Shown: positions 46,580-55,939, counted from the first letter of the stretch. The stretch is 56,014 nucleotides of DNA from Candidatus Falkowbacteria bacterium RIFOXYD12_FULL_34_57 (GCA_001780285.1 MFGN01000011.1:1-56014), one strand, 5' to 3'. Notes: a model not told the origin generated them from the sequence alone. Made by a program: numbers and translations.

Positions 46580-47395
46580 TCATTCTAGCGGACTTTTGAT
46601 GTTTTTTATCGCAGGATTAGTAACTTGGGTATAAATTTGCGTGGTGCGGATATTATTATGCCCTAATAATTTTTGTACATAACGCACATCCGTACCATTT
46701 TCTAAAAGATGGGTGGCGAAACTGTGTCGCAGTGAATGAAAGGTTGCATCTTTATTGATATTAGCTTTTTTTAAAGAATTTTTAAAGGTTTTTTGCAGAG
46801 AAGTAGTTGTCATCTTTCCACTTCGATTACTTTCAAATAAAAAATCATTTTTATGTTTGTTTTTAACCAATATTTCCATATCTTTTTTCAATTTTTCAGG
46901 AAAAATTGTAATTCTATCTTTCATTCCTTTGGCCTCTTTAAGATGAATTATCATTTCATCCAAACCAACATCTTTAACCTTTAAATTTATCACCTCACTA
47001 ACCCGCAACCCGGACGCGTACCCAATTGATATCATTAATTTATGTTTAGGATTATTGGTAAATGATAATATCTTTTTTATTTCATCTCTTGATAAAACCA
47101 CAGGGAGCCTTTTGTTTTTTTTGGCGCACCTAAAATCTATCTCGTCTTTCGATTTTAATACTTCTTTATAAAAAAATTTAATAGAATTAAGTGCTAGGTT
47201 AATGGTTTGAGGAGAATTACCCCTGCTCTGTTTACTTAATAAATATTCCTCAATAGCTTTATTTTTATTTGTTATATTATTTTTTTTAGAAAAAGCCAAA
47301 TATTCATTTATATAAAATAAATAAGATTTTATGGTTTTAAGGCTATAATTACGTAATTTCAACAATGAAACTATCTTGTCAAAAATATTATTCAT
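46580..47395 (-). CDS. Tyrosine recombinase, IntI/XerCD-like, lacking the IntI-specific extra domain
   Basis: GYASGLRVSEVINLKVKD (Arg I), HSLRHSFATHLLENG (HxxR), LGHNNIRTTQIYTQV (H and Tyr), terminal IKSPLE like IntI RSPLD. Confidence 0.92.
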   Translation of the reverse strand: MNNIFDKIVSLLKLRNYSLKTIKSYLFYINEYLAFSKKNNITNKNKAIEEYLLSKQSRGNSPQTINLALNSIKFFYKEVLKSKDEIDFRCAKKNKRLPVVLSRDEIKKILSFTNNPKHKLMISIGYASGLRVSEVINLKVKDVGLDEMIIHLKEAKGMKDRITIFPEKLKKDMEILVKNKHKNDFLFESNRSGKMTTTSLQKTFKNSLKKANINKDATFHSLRHSFATHLLENGTDVRYVQKLLGHNNIRTTQIYTQVTNPAIKNIKSPLE

Positions 47396-47493: not shown

Positions 47494-47547
47494 ATACAAT
47501 AGTGGCGTTTTATACAAACAAAAAGTTTGTATAAAAACCAGTTGTAC
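47494..47547. other. attI/attC-like hairpin at recombinase-proximal end of array
   Basis: ATACAAT...GGCGTTTTATACAAAC-AAAAA-GTTTGTATAAAAACCA-GTTGTAC; perfect 12-bp palindromic stem 47508-47519/47525-47536. Confidence 0.6.
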
Positions 47548-47623
47548 GAAATAATAAAAAGTTTTAAAATCTCTTTCAGAGATTTATTGGGGCAATTTTA
47601 ATTATTTTTTAATCTTAAACACT

Positions 47624-48241
47624 ATGAAGATTTACAAAATCACAAAAGGACAACTAATAACATTGTGGATGTTTGGAGTTTTATTTTTCTTAGGCAATCT
47701 ACTTTATGTATTTGGCCAATATTCACCATCTGGATTTTCATTATTTTTACTTTTATTAGTGCCTGCTATGTTAGTTTTCTATACAGTTGGCTGGAAATCT
47801 CATAATCCGAAAAAGTCACAAGTAGAAAAACTACAAGATAATAATATCAACGATAAAACTACAAGTATGGACAACCAACCTAAATCAAAAAAATCAATAA
47901 ACCACGCTAAAAGAATTAGAGATTGGTCTATTTTCTATTTTGTATTAGCTGCAATAAATATTGGAATCTATGGCTTTATAATATCTGCAACAGAAAGTAT
48001 GATATTTGGTATTTTTATGATACCATCTTTGATTATGGCGGTATTGGCATACTTAATGCTTCGTTATAAAAACAGGATTACGGCTGGCATATTTCTTATA
48101 TATTATTTATTGATTTTTTTGATTAATTTAGGAATAAGTAGCGTAAGTGAAAGTAGTAGTGTAGGCTCATTATTATTTTTGGTAGGTTTAATTGGTATTT
48201 TCCAATGTTATAGTTCCGCAAAAAAGCTGGCTAAAAAATAA
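47624..48241 (+). CDS. Cassette A: multi-TM hypothetical protein
   Basis: 205-aa ORF with TM segments; flanked by inverted arms GTTGTACG.../...CGTACAAC. Confidence 0.7.
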   Translation: MKIYKITKGQLITLWMFGVLFFLGNLLYVFGQYSPSGFSLFLLLLVPAMLVFYTVGWKSHNPKKSQVEKLQDNNINDKTTSMDNQPKSKKSINHAKRIRDWSIFYFVLAAINIGIYGFIISATESMIFGIFMIPSLIMAVLAYLMLRYKNRITAGIFLIYYLLIFLINLGISSVSESSSVGSLLFLVGLIGIFQCYSSAKKLAKK

Positions 48242-48295
48242 TTAAAATTGCCCCAATATTTTGCTAACGCAAAATTAAAAACTTTTCATTACATC

Positions 48296-48648
48296 GTACA
48301 ACACGGGATATCTGGTTCGTAAAATTTCTTTAACTATATAACTTATGAATAACATTGGATTAATTCTTAATGTAATTGGAACATTGTTTCTTGCTTTTTC
48401 CTTTAATAGCCAAAAGGATGACTTATTTGGAAATACTACCGAAGACGGAAAAAAATTACATTTTCATATTTTAAACACCCCTTATTATTTAAAATAGGAA
48501 TTATTTTAATTATTTTGGGGTTCTTGTTTCAATTAAGTTTTTAAAGAAATTTTACTCACCCAAATTCAGTTTCCGTAATCTGCTAGTGCATCCGCACAAT
48601 TTTAGCAGATTACTCCAACTGAACTTCAGATATCCCGAAACGTTACCC
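48296..48648. other. attC-like site 1 (interrupted by nested small gene)
   Basis: GTACAAC-ACGGGATATCTG...CAGATATCCCG-AAAC-GTTACCC; contains CCCAAATT...AACTTC motif pair. Confidence 0.55.
48345..48544 (+). CDS. Nested small membrane protein, two overlapping frames (possible -1 frameshift)
   Basis: 0-frame MNNIGLILNVIGTLFLAFSFNSQKDDLFGNTTEDGKKLHFHILNTPYYLK* ends just after T_TTA_AAA; -1 frame continues FKIGIILIILGFLFQLSF*; flanked by 14-bp perfect IR 48320-48333/48541-48554. Confidence 0.5.
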
Positions 48649-48676
48649 AAAATTCGCTCCGCTCATTTTGGGTAAC
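48642..48676. other. ORF-less micro-cassette
   Basis: GTTACCCAAAATTCGCTCCGCTCATTTTGGGTAAC, inverted core sites bracketing no gene. Confidence 0.5.
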
Positions 48677-48814
48677 GTGCGCGCCTGTGCGAAGAATCGC
48701 TCCGCGAACTTCAGGTAACAACGGCTGTACGGCTCGCGCCCAAATTTTTTCTTTCTCTCCTGCGCTCCGCTCCGGAGAAAAAGAAAAAACTTCGCACAGC
48801 CGCGCACGTTAGCT
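48670..48814. other. attC-like site 2
   Basis: GGGTAAC-GTGCGCGCCTGTGCGAAG...CTTCGCACAGCCGCGCAC-GTTAGCT. Confidence 0.65.
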
Positions 48815-48983
48815 GAAATATTCCTTTTCTTTTTTGGGCTATCGCCCAATTGTTTTAAAAAATTTTAAAATTTCTTTTTCATTTATTAAAGAGGGGTATA
48901 AGGTGTTTTCTCCGCTCCGCTACGAAAACGATTTATTTATAAGGGGAAAACGAATATAATATAACTATTCAATTGAATAAAAT

Positions 48984-50198
48984 ATGGCAAACAGCAGTAA
49001 TCTTAACAAAGCAAAAAAAGCAAAGAATGATGAGTTCTACACACAGTATTATGATATTCAAATTGAGATTGATGCTTATTTGCAATACAACCCTGATGTT
49101 TACCGTAGTAAGGTGGTTTATTGCAATTGCGATGATCCGTACGAAAGTAATTTTTTTCGCTATTTCGTACTCAATTTCAACAAACTCGGATTAAAACAAC
49201 TCATTACCACTAGTTACAAACCTTCGCCTGTTGCTAACACACAACTGGCTTTATTTGGCGATGACAAAACTCTCACAAAATCAAAAGGGCGCCCTAAAAT
49301 AAACGCCAATAAATTTATTATCAATGAAGTGCACGACATAGATGGTGATGGTGAATTTAATTTGAAAGATGTTGCCAAACAGCTAAAAACAAACAAGCAC
49401 AACGAATGGACGCCTTTAGTAGAAGATGGTGATTTTAGAAGTCCCGAATGTGTAGAATTATTAAAACAGTCCGATATCGTAGTAACAAATCCGCCGTTTA
49501 GCTTATTTCGTGAATATGTAAAGCAGCTTTTTGATTACAACAAAAATTTTGTCATTATTGGCAACATGAATGCGATTACCTATAAAGAAGTTTTTCCGAA
49601 GATTAAGGAAAACAAGATGTGGCTTGGCGCAACGAATTTTAATACCGGAATGTATTTTCAAGTACCGGATGAATTTATTTATGCTGATAGTTATAAATTT
49701 GAACGGGAAAAAAATGGAGTTAAAATGAATAGAGTTCCTGGCGTTTGTTGGTTCACTAATCTTGACCATGGGCGCCGTCATCAGCCACTACCGTTAATGA
49801 CTGAAACTGAAGTGATTAAGTTTGTAACAAAAAAACCCTTTGAAAAATATGATAATTACAATGCAATAGAAATATCCTTTGTAAAAAATATTCCAAGCGA
49901 TTTTAAGGGCGTGATGGGTGTTCCAATTAGTTTTTTAGATAAATATAACCCTGATCAATTTGACATTTTAGGAGCCACTCAAAGAGGCTGCCATGATGAG
50001 GTGCCTGATACTAAAAAATATGATGATTACTGGGAAGTAAGACAAAACGGCAAGAAAACCGGCTCTTCTGGTGGAAAAACAAATGAGAATGCAAATTTAT
50101 TTGGAAATGACGGAAAAAAGAATTATTTTATAAACAAAGATGGTAGAATAATCCAATCTGCTTATCAGAGAATTTTTATCAAGCATAAGAAAAAATAA
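48984..50198 (+). CDS. EcoRI-family adenine-specific DNA methyltransferase-like protein
   Basis: [36 protein letters not shown] motif [21 protein letters not shown]. Confidence 0.8.
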
Positions 50199-50199
50199 T

Positions 50200-51369
50200 A
50201 TGAAAACAATTTTAAAAACTAATATTACCGTCAAAGATGTTTGCGAGGGTTTTGTTTATAATGAGCTCGAAGGCAAGGGATTGTTTGGTTTGTCAGGCAA
50301 GCTCACTATTCAGCCAGAATATCAACGCAATTATATTTATGCGTCTGACGGCGGTAAAAGAGAAATGGCCGTCATTGAATCAGTTCTTAAGGGATACCCA
50401 ATAGGATTGCTTTATTTTAATAAGGTTTCTGAAAACAATTTGGAAGTTTTGGACGGACAACAACGAATTACCAGTCTTGGACGATTTGTGACTGACAAAT
50501 TTGCTATCGTGGATGAAAATGGTTTACAACAAAATTTCAGTGGCATGGCAAAAGACAAAAAAGATAAGATATTGGAAACTAAATTACTAATTTATGAATG
50601 TGAGGGTACAGAAAGTCAAATTAAAGAGTGGTTCAAGACAATTAATATTGCTGGAGTTCCGCTTGTCCCCCAAGAATTGTTAAATGCCATTTATTCAGGA
50701 CCATTCGTTACATTAGGTAAAGAAGAATTTAGTAACAGCCAAAATTCCAATATTCAAAAATGGAGTGCTTACATAAAGGGCAGTGCAAACCGACAGGCAT
50801 TTTTTGAGAGAGCTTTAGATTGGGTGAGTAAAGGGAATATTGATGACTACATGAGTAGTCATCGCAACGACAAAAATATCAACGAGTTAAAAAAATATTT
50901 TAACAGCGTGATTGATTGGGCATCTAGTGTGTTTATCGATGTAGAAAGCGAGATGTGCGGTCTTGAATGGGGACGACTGTATGAGCAGTATCACAAGAAA
51001 GCCTATAACTCCAAGGAAGTGTCAACGAAAGTGCGTAAACTTTATGGCGATTCGTATATTAAAAACCGCAAAGGTATTTTTGAGTTTATTCTAGGTGGTT
51101 CTGTTGATACAAAATTACTTGAAGTCCGAGTCTTTGATGACGCAACCAAAAAATCAGTATATAAAGAACAAACAACTAGAGCTGAAAAGAAAAAAGTATC
51201 AAATTGTCCGCTTTGTGCCATTGGACATGATGCAAACAAAGAAAAAATTTGGAGTTTGAGCGATATGGACGCCGATCATGTATCGGCTTGGAGTAAGGGC
51301 GGTAAGAGTGACATTAAAAATTGTCAGATGCTGTGCAAAACACACAACCGAGCAAAAGGTAATAGATAA
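50200..51369 (+). CDS. DUF262 (ParB/Srx-like) - HNH endonuclease
   Basis: [10 protein letters not shown]...[20 protein letters not shown]...[37 protein letters not shown]. Confidence 0.85.
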
Positions 51370-51440
51370 TCAATTTCATTTATAACGTTTACGTGGCGCT
51401 TTCTACACTCCGCTACGAAAACGAATTTAATATTAGGCTT

Positions 51441-52826
51441 ATGCCAAACATCAGGCAACAATTTATTGAATTAAAAGATTTAGTTCTTTGGGATGAAAAT
51501 GCCCGTTTTCCCGATAAGTATTTCAACAAGCCAGACGAAGAACTAATCGAGTATATTTGCTCTAAAAAGAATTTTAAAATTATTGATTTAGCAGAATCTA
51601 TTGTTAAAGAATTTGATTTACCTCAATTAGAAAAAATTGTAATCTATTCTTTGAATGGCAACAATATTGTCTTAGAAGGCAATAGGCGCTTAGTGGCTTA
51701 TAAGTTACTAAATAATCCTGATTTAATTAAAAATCCGCAAACAAAAAATAAGCTCATTGAATTAAAAAGCAAAATTGATATTAATGATAATTTCAAATTA
51801 GAGTGCTTGGTAACAGATGATATTGAGCAAGGGTTTCGATATATAGAAAGAAAACATTTAAATAACAATCACGAAGTCGCATGGGGTGATAATGAAAGAA
51901 CTCACCACAAAGCGCGCAGAGGAAAAGCCAGTGCTAAAGAATTATTTAAAGTTGAAATAACGAAAATAGTTAAAGACCTTGACCTGCCAACCGCTATGAA
52001 AGAATCTGTTTTGGGTCACGGTTATGTCACCAATTTTTGGAGAATTTTGGAAAGCGAGCCCGCTTGGAAAGAATATGGTTTTAAAATTGATAGTGAGGGC
52101 AAACTTCAAATGCAAGACAAAAATTTTAAAGACAAGCTCAAAGTTATTATTCTAAACGTTTTACAAAAACAAGATTTCAGCGGTAATAAAATTGATTCTC
52201 GCTCTCTAAATAAAAACAAGGAAAAGGAAGAATACATCAAATCAATTTCAAACGAAGACATAAAAAAAGTTGAGTCTGAAATAAAAAATCAGACAAAAGA
52301 AAATATTTTTGGTGACGAAACGATAGAAATTAAACCGATAAATCAAAAGAGGAGCAATCCGAAATCCACAACAAGAAGTTATTTAATCCCAAAGACTTGT
52401 ATTCTCGAAATAAGCGAAACGAAAATAAATAACATATACAGGGAGTTAAAAAATGATCTTCTACTTGATGACTCATTACGTGCGGTACCGAATGCTGTCG
52501 GCGTGTTATTCAGAGTTTTTTTGGAAATTAGCATTGATTGTTTTTGGGAAAAAAATGGTTTTACTTTTAAAACCGACACAAAGTTAGCTGGTAAAATTAC
52601 ATTAGCTGCTGATTTTATGGAAAAAAATAAAATTGCAGAAACTAAACAATTAAAAAATATTAGAACTGTGGCAACTGACAAGAATAATTTATTAGCCATA
52701 GAAAATTTTCATAGCTATGTACATAGCTATAAATCGCAGCCAACTTCAAGCACGCTTAAACTAAAATGGGATAATTTACAAGAATTTTTTGAAATTTTGT
52801 GGTCATCTTTAAAGTCCAAAAAATAA
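51441..52826 (+). CDS. ParB-N-like DNA-binding/nuclease protein
   Basis: QFIELKDLVLWDENARFPDKY; IVLEGNRRLVAYKLL; start moved to ATG 51441 because the upstream part is a repeated leader. Confidence 0.65.
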   Translation: MPNIRQQFIELKDLVLWDENARFPDKYFNKPDEELIEYICSKKNFKIIDLAESIVKEFDLPQLEKIVIYSLNGNNIVLEGNRRLVAYKLLNNPDLIKNPQTKNKLIELKSKIDINDNFKLECLVTDDIEQGFRYIERKHLNNNHEVAWGDNERTHHKARRGKASAKELFKVEITKIVKDLDLPTAMKESVLGHGYVTNFWRILESEPAWKEYGFKIDSEGKLQMQDKNFKDKLKVIILNVLQKQDFSGNKIDSRSLNKNKEKEEYIKSISNEDIKKVESEIKNQTKENIFGDETIEIKPINQKRSNPKSTTRSYLIPKTCILEISETKINNIYRELKNDLLLDDSLRAVPNAVGVLFRVFLEISIDCFWEKNGFTFKTDTKLAGKITLAADFMEKNKIAETKQLKNIRTVATDKNNLLAIENFHSYVHSYKSQPTSSTLKLKWDNLQEFFEILWSSLKSKK

Positions 52827-52830
52827 AAAT

Positions 52831-53700
52831 ATGTTTTACTCGCCATTAAGATATCCAGGTGGAAAAAATAAACTAGCGAAATTCATCGCAAAAATTTGCG
52901 TTGAAAATAATATTAATGGACATTATGTGGAGCCATACGCTGGCGGAGCATCGGTTGCTCTATTTCTGCTTTTGAAGAAAAAAGTCTCCAAAATTACAAT
53001 TAATGACTACGATCGTTCAATTTACGCTTTTTGGTTTTCAATATTAAAACATACAGACATATTTTGCAAAATGATTGAAAATACAGAAATTAACATCGAG
53101 ACTTGGAGAAAAGCAAAAGCAATTCAAAAGAAGAAAAAATATTCGTCATTAATACAACTCGGTTTTTCGACATTTTTTCTCAATAGAGTTAACATGTCTG
53201 GAATTATCGATGGCGGCGTGATTGGTGGCATTGATCAAAATGGAACCTATAAAATGGATTGTCGCTTCAATAAACAGGAATTAATTAAGAGAATAAAAGA
53301 AATAGCAAAATATAAAAAGCAAATTAAGATATTTAATTTAGACGCAGTTGATTTGATCGAAATAATTAAAAATGAATCTCAAAATCAGCAAACCATTTTT
53401 TATTTTGACCCTCCATATTATTTAAAAGGAAAATCTTTGTATATAAATCATTATAAGCATAATGACCACGAAAAAATCGGAAAATTGATCAATTCAATTC
53501 AAAACATTCATTGGATTGTATCATACGATAATACAAAAGAGATTAATAAAATTTACAATTGGGTCACTGACAAGAAAAAAATTGAATATTCTTTTTTTCA
53601 TACTGCTCATAGAGCGAAAGAAGGAAAGGAAATATTATTTTTTAGTGACAGTCTAAAAAATATTGATTTGGTTATTAATCCAGTAAAACAAAAATTATAA
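52831..53700 (+). CDS. Dam-family (D12 class) adenine-N6 DNA methyltransferase
   Basis: SPLRYPGGKNKLAKFI; YVEPYAGGASVALFLL; FYFDPPYY. Confidence 0.92.
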   Translation: MFYSPLRYPGGKNKLAKFIAKICVENNINGHYVEPYAGGASVALFLLLKKKVSKITINDYDRSIYAFWFSILKHTDIFCKMIENTEINIETWRKAKAIQKKKKYSSLIQLGFSTFFLNRVNMSGIIDGGVIGGIDQNGTYKMDCRFNKQELIKRIKEIAKYKKQIKIFNLDAVDLIEIIKNESQNQQTIFYFDPPYYLKGKSLYINHYKHNDHEKIGKLINSIQNIHWIVSYDNTKEINKIYNWVTDKKKIEYSFFHTAHRAKEGKEILFFSDSLKNIDLVINPVKQKL

Positions 53701-53706
53701 TAAGGA

Positions 53707-53757
53707 GTTTTGGATTTTGGGCATTCACCCCTGACCCCTCTGCCCAAAATCCAAAAC
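53707..53757. repeat. Hairpin repeat, copy 1
   Basis: GTTTTGGATTTTGGGCATTCACCCCTGACCCCTCTGCCCAAAATCCAAAAC; second copy 55788-55838. Confidence 0.8.
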
Positions 53758-53826
53758 AGAAAAAGAAATTTTAAAATTTTTTAAAACAATTCCGACTGCT
53801 GTCGGAAAAAAGAAAAGGAATACATC

Positions 53827-53924
53827 AGCTAACAACGAGTATCCGGTTACGGCTTTTATCCAAAAGCCTCCACCCAAATTTTTCTTTCGCTACGCTACAG
53901 AAAAACTTCGGATACTCGTTATCG
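53827..53924. other. attC-like site 3
   Basis: AGCTAAC-AACGAGTATCCG...CGGATACTC-GTTATCG. Confidence 0.7.
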
Positions 53925-53960
53925 GAAATATTTTAAATTTTATTTTTTAACATTAAATCT

Positions 53961-54230
53961 ATGAAAGAATTCAAAGAAGATTGGCAGCTTAGTGAAGCCG
54001 AGAAAAAAGAAAATTACGTAAACAATCTTAAACTTAGGATTGAGACTATAACAGAATCGGTCCATAAGCTACATTTTCACCATGGCCATGAGCAAGATGA
54101 AATAAAAGATTTGCCAGAAGAACAAGCCAAGGAATTATACAAAAAGTTAGAAGAAGACATACAACAACTTATTGAGGTTAAAAATAATCTCGAAAAAGGA
54201 AATTCTTATCTTATTGAAAATAAAAAATAA
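53961..54230 (+). CDS. Cassette gene: 89-aa hypothetical protein
   Basis: ORF between GTTATCGGAAATATTTTAAATTTTATTTT and AAAATAAAATTTAAAATACATCCGATAAC arms. Confidence 0.6.
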   Translation: MKEFKEDWQLSEAEKKENYVNNLKLRIETITESVHKLHFHHGHEQDEIKDLPEEQAKELYKKLEEDIQQLIEVKNNLEKGNSYLIENKK

Positions 54231-54245
54231 AATTTAAAATACATC

Positions 54246-54431
54246 CGATAACACCGCGATAAGCGGCTCCAGAAAATTTCCTTTATTAATATTCCTCCTT
54301 CGCTGAAGCTACGGAGGATAAAAATAATGAGTAAAATTTTCTTCCGACCCAAATTTTTATTTCTTTTTTCTTAAATGAATTAACATTAAGGAAGAAAAAT
54401 AAAAACTTCGCTTCATCGGGGAACGTTAGGC
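54246..54431. other. attC-like site 4
   Basis: CGATAAC-ACCGCGATAAGCG...CGCTTCATCGGGG-AAC-GTTAGGC. Confidence 0.6.
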
Positions 54432-55236: not shown

Positions 55237-55794
55237 ATGAGATTAAATGGTTCTTGGAAAATAAAAGAGAGTCTAGAAAAATATAAAAACCACTGGATGA
55301 AGGTTCGCGAGGATAAAATTATCCAGCCAGACGGAAAGGATGGCATAGTTGGCGTTATTGAATTAAGGGATGGCGTTTCAATTCTCGCTCTTGATGATGA
55401 TGGTTATGTTTATTTGATTAAACAGTTCCGTTATATCTTATCGAGAAAAAGCATCGAAGTTATGGGTGGAGGAATTGATGATGACGAGGATCCTCTAAAT
55501 GCTGCAAAAAGAGAATTGAAGGAAGAGGCGGGAATTATTGCTGACGAGTGGGTTTTTATGGAAAAGTTTCACCCTTTCACTGCTGCCATTAAATCGTCCA
55601 ATACTATGTACTTGGCACGTAAATTAAAATTTACTGAAGCGAGTCCAGAAGGCACAGAACAAATTAAAATATTAAAGGTCAAATTTGAGGATGCATTAAA
55701 AATGGTCATGGGAGGTGAAATTACCCAAGGGCCGAGTTGCGTTATTATTCTAAAAACTTCTGAGTATTTAAAAAATATCAATAAGGTGTTTTGA
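55237..55794 (+). CDS. Cassette gene: Nudix hydrolase (ADP-ribose pyrophosphatase-like)
   Basis: Nudix box GGGIDDDEDPLNAAKRELKEEAGI; ATG at 55237 is the likely start. Confidence 0.9.
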   Translation: MRLNGSWKIKESLEKYKNHWMKVREDKIIQPDGKDGIVGVIELRDGVSILALDDDGYVYLIKQFRYILSRKSIEVMGGGIDDDEDPLNAAKRELKEEAGIIADEWVFMEKFHPFTAAIKSSNTMYLARKLKFTEASPEGTEQIKILKVKFEDALKMVMGGEITQGPSCVIILKTSEYLKNINKVF

Positions 55795-55838
55795 GTTTTG
55801 GGCATTCACCCCTGACCCCTCTGCCCAAAATCCAAAAC
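55788..55838. repeat. Hairpin repeat, copy 2
   Basis: GTTTTGAGTTTTGGGCATTCACCCCTGACCCCTCTGCCCAAAATCCAAAAC. Confidence 0.8.
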
Positions 55839-55939
55839 AAAAATCAAATTTTCTTAGTAGCAAAACAGCATTTAAACCAATAAAAAACGAAATAAAAAAT
55901 TTACATCGCACAACCTTCTATATCAAAATCAATACCAAA

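Follow-up and report, generated by a model that had tools for sequence, protein, structure and literature searches.

Our analyses suggest that a single integron-type cassette in the window, which is the whole of a 56-kb contig of a 1.6-Mb genome, carries two defence systems: an EcoRI-family methylase (M1) that would give its specificity to a constant DUF262-HNH nuclease (R), and, behind them, PD-Lambda-5 as a second layer. We put the probability of this reading at roughly 0.65. Read directly from the sequence are the cassette itself, the families of its genes, the recombining segments of M1 and the constancy of R (Table 1). In the mechanism that we propose, M1, with two exchangeable recognition segments, would both protect the host by methylation and, through contact with R, set the target of the nuclease; R would be set off where M1 encounters an unmodified site, cleaving the DNA and probably using NTP via its DUF262 domain; PD-Lambda-5, consisting of a ParB-like effector and a Dam-type methylase, would add an adenine mark of its own; and the IntI-like recombinase would move the whole block, the ends of which would fold up as an exceptionally long attC-like hairpin. 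Of the new results, the exchange of M1 segments beside a near-constant R is the strongest.

Table 1. Features of the four-gene cassette and its surroundings, in window coordinates.
Feature	Position	Strand	Basis or remark
IntI-like tyrosine recombinase (271 aa)	46580..47395	-	Heads the cassette array; best PDB match 2a3v
attC-like hairpin before the four-gene cassette	48674..48810	+	Fold versus shuffles; exact copy on contig C14
Left arm, cassette start, GTTAGCTGAAATATTCC	48808..48880 (73 nt)	+	Complementarity with right arm
M1 leader	48902..48983	+	Small hairpin GTTTTC..GAAAAC, TATAAT-like stretch
M1, EcoRI-family N6-adenine methylase (404 aa)	48984..50198	+	PF13651, PDLC03297
Variable segment V1 of M1 (aa 216-255), class V1c6	49629..49748	+	M1 alignment
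Variable segment V2 of M1 (aa 328-396), class V2c1	49965..50171	+	M1 alignment
R, DUF262 (DGQQR) + HNH nuclease (389 aa)	50200..51369	+	PF03235, PF01844, PDLC03418
PD-Lambda-5_A, ParB/Srx-like N-domain, EGNRR	51393..52826	+	PDLC03998; start likely 51441
Second leader, before the PD-Lambda-5 genes	51395..51440	+	79% identical to 48902-48944
PD-Lambda-5_B (M2), D12-class N6-adenine methylase (DPPY)	52831..53700	+	PDLC04018, PF02086
82-nt element	53690..53771	+	Repeated at 55771-55852; holds GC-rich hairpin, terminator-like
Right arm, cassette end, GGAATACATCAGCTAAC	53759..53833 (75 nt)	+	Complementarity with left arm
attC-like hairpin closing the four-gene cassette	53834..53920	+	Fold z -6.4 alone

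The four genes belong to the families that a preliminary description of this DNA had given them. M1, described there as an EcoRI-type adenine methylase, covers the whole Pfam EcoRI_methylase model (E 8e-127), is filed by PADLOC as a Type II methylase and has NPPF at aa 169-172, invariant in 72 relatives. R, described as a DUF262-HNH protein with DGQQR and zinc cysteines, matches GmrSD_N/DUF262 (1.6e-19) and HNH (3e-7) in Pfam and the Type II nuclease model REase_II in PADLOC (5e-83); DGQQR and the zinc and HNH residues C336, C339, D359, H360, C375, C379, H382 and N383 are invariant in 30 relatives, and the named relatives come mostly from Patescibacteria, in keeping with the sizes of this genome and of those of its phylum-mates. 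DUF262 and HNH are the only domains that Pfam finds in R: a superfamily-2 helicase is absent, as is the DUF1524 nuclease domain, the place of which is taken by the HNH. The remaining two, called a ParB-N-like protein and a Dam-type methylase, are adjacent and match PD-Lambda-5_A (7e-79) and PD-Lambda-5_B (5e-114) in PADLOC. The former has no Pfam match, carries an EGNRR motif invariant in four relatives, probably starts at the ATG at 51441 rather than at 51393, and had no relatives in viral contigs when queried either with the single sequence or with an alignment of four; the latter matches MethyltransfD12 in Pfam and has an invariant DPPY. Sequence matches in the PDB were found for none of M1, R and PD-Lambda-5_A.

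The case for a guided nuclease comes from the main comparison of 72 complete M1-R pairs. In these, M1 has two hypervariable segments, V1 and V2, in a conserved frame, while R lacks a variable segment and has a median pairwise identity of 81%, a figure flattered by the choice of loci (80 in all), which were picked by similarity to R. The pairwise identities of both segments are bimodal and, cut at a threshold of 45%, give 10 V1 and 22 V2 classes; nine of the ten V1 classes are combined with between 3 and 8 V2 classes, and eleven of the V2 classes with between 2 and 6 V1 classes, a reassortment that spans phyla, plasmids and a phage. Identity between nucleases is 81.9% when the V1 class is the same versus 81.2% when it differs, and 81.8 versus 81.2% for V2. 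No column of R tracks the class of either segment, the strongest associations being 0.119 and 0.118 against shuffles of up to 0.140 and 0.137; the middle part of M1 itself associates with the classes at up to 0.32. An independent sample of 12 M1-R pairs, from 11 plasmids of cultured bacteria and one phage, is small and likewise selected through R but repeats the contrast; its median identities are 59% for the N-terminus of M1, 23% for V1, 65% for the middle, 26% for V2 and 60% for R. Single segments stand out from their surroundings: the methylase of a Flavobacterium phage shares 88% of V2 with that of the window and only 50% of the N-terminus, and a Moraxella methylase has a V2 87% identical to that of locus L070 and an N-terminus 49% identical to the window's. 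Among the plasmid hosts, Pediococcus pentosaceus XY62 has a V1c1-like V1 with a V2c0-like V2, and Moraxella osloensis NBRC 115781 a V1c0-like V1 with a V2c1-like V2; Rhodococcus ruber YYL and Leuconostoc mesenteroides F-22 are further cultured hosts of M1-R plasmids.

The classic member of the family falls into the same classes. M.EcoRI, the target of which is GAATTC, is encoded side by side with its nuclease on the E. coli plasmid pU90-3; its V1 agrees best with class V1c1 (72% identity, against 31% for the runner-up class) and its V2 with class V2c5 (62%, against 32%), and its backbone is about equidistant from all 72 M1 proteins (median 52%, range 48-57). The segments beside the constant R are thus of the same kinds as those in a GAATTC-marking methylase. 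From their variability, their reassortment and M.EcoRI, we infer that V1 and V2 are recognition segments. The structural model of M1 is moderate (pLDDT 71, V2 being poor) and gave no Foldseek match at E <= 0.001; the AlphaFold model of R is poor (pLDDT 51), and the protein could therefore hide an unseen contact region.

Seen against these data, an ordinary Type IIP pair accompanied by PD-Lambda-5, in which R alone cuts the site of M1 and the V segments do not set specificity, appears improbable to us. PADLOC does file the two proteins as a Type II methylase and a Type II restriction enzyme, for which reason REBASE may hold an R-type member cutting on its own, and M.EcoRI, from the same methylase family, belongs to a true Type IIP system beside R.EcoRI. 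The kinship with EcoRI, however, is confined to the methylase: M1 is a full-length member of the family, whereas R is unrelated to R.EcoRI in domain content and stays near-constant while the segments of M1 vary. A standard Type II nuclease must itself match the target of its methylase, but the co-variation expected of Type IIP was, by the indirect measure of R columns and segment classes, not seen: the two segments reassort in discrete classes, M.EcoRI with its defined target has one specific class of each, and R tracks neither. As a near-constant R cannot match exchanged segments, unless these play no part in specificity, guidance of R by M1 is the simplest reading.

Guidance of this kind is familiar from other systems, in which Mod guides Res (Type III) and HsdS guides HsdR (Type I). 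Like Mod-Res and the two-domain exchange of HsdS, M1-R combines an exchangeable specificity on the methylation side with a constant nuclease, and the exchangeable segments of Type III Mod proteins are a pattern analogous to that of M1; M1, however, is of a different methylase family, and the pair here has neither a helicase/translocase motor nor HsdS, its nuclease being a DUF262-HNH protein of 389 aa. Independent exchange of V1 and V2 would, moreover, often produce asymmetric sites, another reason for expecting a guided nuclease. An NTP-gated R is plausible since a DGQQR-bearing DUF262 domain forms the predicted NTPase in GmrS (PMC4619093).

The same domain (PMC4619093) speaks for yet another reading, which we judge slightly less probable still than the Type IIP pair: R would be modification-dependent (Type IV, GmrSD-like or SspE-like) and recognise either some invariant property of phage DNA or a methylation mark of a general kind, with M1 only marking self. 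GmrSD, BrxU and SspE, all DUF262 proteins, work on modified DNA or together with it (PMC12707154) and share with R a DGQQR-bearing DUF262 domain at the N-terminus and a His-Me-type nuclease domain behind it; a constant substrate would also suit a constant R. Yet the nuclease part of R is an HNH of PF01844 with zinc cysteines, not DUF1524, and a Type IV enzyme needs no stable partner of the EcoRI methylase family, whereas the pairing of R with one is seen across phyla. Recruitment of a Type IV-like nuclease family to methylation-protected restriction is known from LlaJI, an R-M system derived from McrBC (PMC12707154); unlike M1-R, it is built on the McrB/McrC family and takes its specificity from the B3 domain of the nuclease. 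M1 as the guide of R remains our preferred reading.

On the sequence, M1-R is a real unit and a widespread R-M pair. Of the 80 loci, which come from many phyla (R relatives with 77-91% identity), 76 place M1 upstream of R, and in all 12 of the plasmid and phage loci opened it stands immediately upstream. Three of the four loci lacking M1 are at contig ends; in the fourth (L011, 4454-5623), R is intact and follows a RhuM gene, inside a run of metabolic genes with no M1 nearby. This orphan, one case from a single MAG contig, would do least harm if R has no activity without M1. In 26 of the 76 loci, one to four unrelated genes stand between M1 and R (e.g., L008, L017, L041 and L083), encoding RhuM, Fic, a T5orf172 domain, a Thoeris-like TIR, AAA/OLD-like ATPases or BRO; the gap is an interstitial cargo slot, and many of the inserted genes are of known defence families. 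In the open-access literature, we found nothing on point regarding an EcoRI or EcoRI-family methylase with DUF262.

The preliminary description regarded the four genes as one unnamed system, which did not hold up. PADLOC resolves them into the M1-R pair (PDLC03297 and PDLC03418) and PD-Lambda-5 (_A and _B), a tested antiphage system found by functional selection, with activity shown for another member (PMC9519451). The third and fourth genes match its two components strongly, but the setting reported by Vassallo et al. 2022 (PMC9519451) is a prophage, whereas here it is an integron-type cassette behind another R-M pair. That the four genes never co-occur elsewhere, which the description had named as something that would speak against it, is not borne out: they do so in the same order, M1-R-A-B, at L058, on a Paceibacterota contig, with PADLOC matches of 1e-49 for A and 8e-119 for B, the divergent A protein having been missed by tblastn and recovered by the PADLOC scan. 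But the genes are not an obligate set: among the 80 R relatives, a PD-Lambda-5 pair was found at no R locus other than the window and L058, and among 380 genomes of the phylum, PD-Lambda-5_A occurs in 4 and a close R (70% or more) in 16, the two coming together only in the window's own genome.

PD-Lambda-5, for its part, keeps varied company. The pair adjoins R-M genes in 6 of 7 loci (the window, L058, L122, L123, L124 and L151), with none seen at L150, and the neighbours at L122, L123, L124 and L151 are of differing types: 5mC, other Type II and Type I-like, Type I at L124 and L151 being our own reading of the sequences. M1-R, in turn, lies between the same kind of arms in four other loci, each time with a different further module: an AbiL-like AAA with RloB (L032), three small genes, one of them PDC-S50-like (L033), DUF2130 (L037) and a RelA/SpoT-like PDC-S33 (L047). 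A functional four-component system is therefore very unlikely: the order kept at L058 argues for it, but almost every other M1-R locus, like the plasmid and phage loci opened, lacks PD-Lambda-5, the latter sits beside other R-M types, and the other M1-R cassettes have different partner modules. We dropped the candidate, as the pairs occur apart and with other partners. The leader of M1, a putative promoter, resembles the M1 leaders of L032, L033, L037, L047 and L008; its second copy before the PD-Lambda-5 genes, and another before the AbiL pair of L032, hint at the fusion of once separate cassettes, and the second leader is possibly the scar of such a fusion.

That this cargo is bounded as a single cassette of DNA-modification and defence genes, enclosed by nearly complementary arms, was proposed in the preliminary description, and the arms, the gene families and the ends of neighbouring cassettes all agree with it. 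The arms are 84% complementary, including a 33-nt perfect core, pair with a local-alignment score of 51, where 500 dinucleotide shuffles reach no more than 24, and flank four intact, full-length open frames, all on the + strand. The well-resolved cassettes downstream of the recombinase start with GTTxxxxGAAATA and finish with TACATCxxxxAAC; the neighbours at 47541-48302 and 53918-54252 have GTT..AAC ends and long complementary arms like the four-gene cassette, as do the cassettes on contig C14 of the same genome, and the complementarity of the ends spans 32-75 nt in the window and up to 93 nt on C14. Hairpins resembling attC, with a GTT crossover, recur between the cassettes of the array and have copies on C14; inside the four-gene cassette, none was found between the genes. 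The bottom strand of 48674-48810 folds at -46.1 versus -25.8 for shuffles (sd 2.7, z -7.5), and the junction of the putative circle, in which the closing hairpin is joined to the cassette start, forms a single 232-nt hairpin at -80.7 versus -23.2 (sd 3.6, z -15.8). Given the common cassette ends, the hairpins between cassettes and the circle-junction fold, the arms are the cassette boundaries and, by this sequence reading, the ends of an integron-type cassette.

The likeness to integrons has its limits. The recombinase, the attC-like hairpins and the GTT..AAC boundaries are shared, but the cassette carries four genes, which is unusual, as had been remarked earlier, together with a leader, and the end complementarity of 32-93 nt compares with about 7. 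The recombinase, a divergent one, finds its best PDB match in the integron integrase IntI4 (E 4e-51); the alignment covers its full length apart from the integrase insert of about 25-50 aa, where it breaks; integron integrases have this IntI-specific insert, whereas the recombinase here lacks most of it. In NCBIfam it scores 226 bits for XerA_Arch (cut-off 220) and 224 bits for integrase_gron, under the curated cut-off of 265. The open-access literature yielded nothing on point about integrons of Patescibacteria/CPR.

Taken more widely, the data favour, by somewhat better than even odds, a restriction class so far undescribed and widespread: an EcoRI-family methylase with two freely recombining segments would program a constant DUF262-HNH nuclease, often at non-palindromic sites marked on one strand, EcoRI being the palindromic special case open to an independent dimeric nuclease, and M1-R would be the chassis of integron cassettes in small genomes, each with a different second defence module. 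If so, two short segments would suffice to read off, and perhaps to predict, the specificity of a compact two-gene system, M.EcoRI (GAATTC) providing the first item of a segment-specificity code, and the EcoRI methylase would find its place in a family mostly serving a guided nuclease. Bacteria with reduced genomes would then be moving packages of two defence systems, each package as one integron cassette, a point relevant to the assembly of defence islands.

Several smaller observations concern the carriers. At seven loci, M1-R or PD-Lambda-5 modules lie inside long, near-identical inverted repeats of 55-253 nt (L007 5667-11027, L035 6230-10576, L036 134-7506, L042 2046-6730, L045 6388-11309, L122 6234-12315 and L058 1-5557), which form a second type of carrier and enclose no obvious recombinase. 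A second recombinase of the window's genome (L002, G000:C30:106-792), 48% identical to the array integrase, sits at a contig end, and the 20 kb examined there (L119) showed no cassette-like repeats. Contig C14 (L121, 8764 bp) is a second piece of the window's cassette array; it has several small cassettes, and its attC-like copies match window positions 48660-48820 exactly. Rfam matches in the window are absent. Between complementary stretches of an attC-like site, 48302-48643 holds a 50-codon frame (start MNNIGLILNV), as if a truncated cassette lay inside the hairpin. The two copies of the 82-nt element, 87% identical, stand at the 3' ends of two different cassettes and are perhaps a shared terminator.
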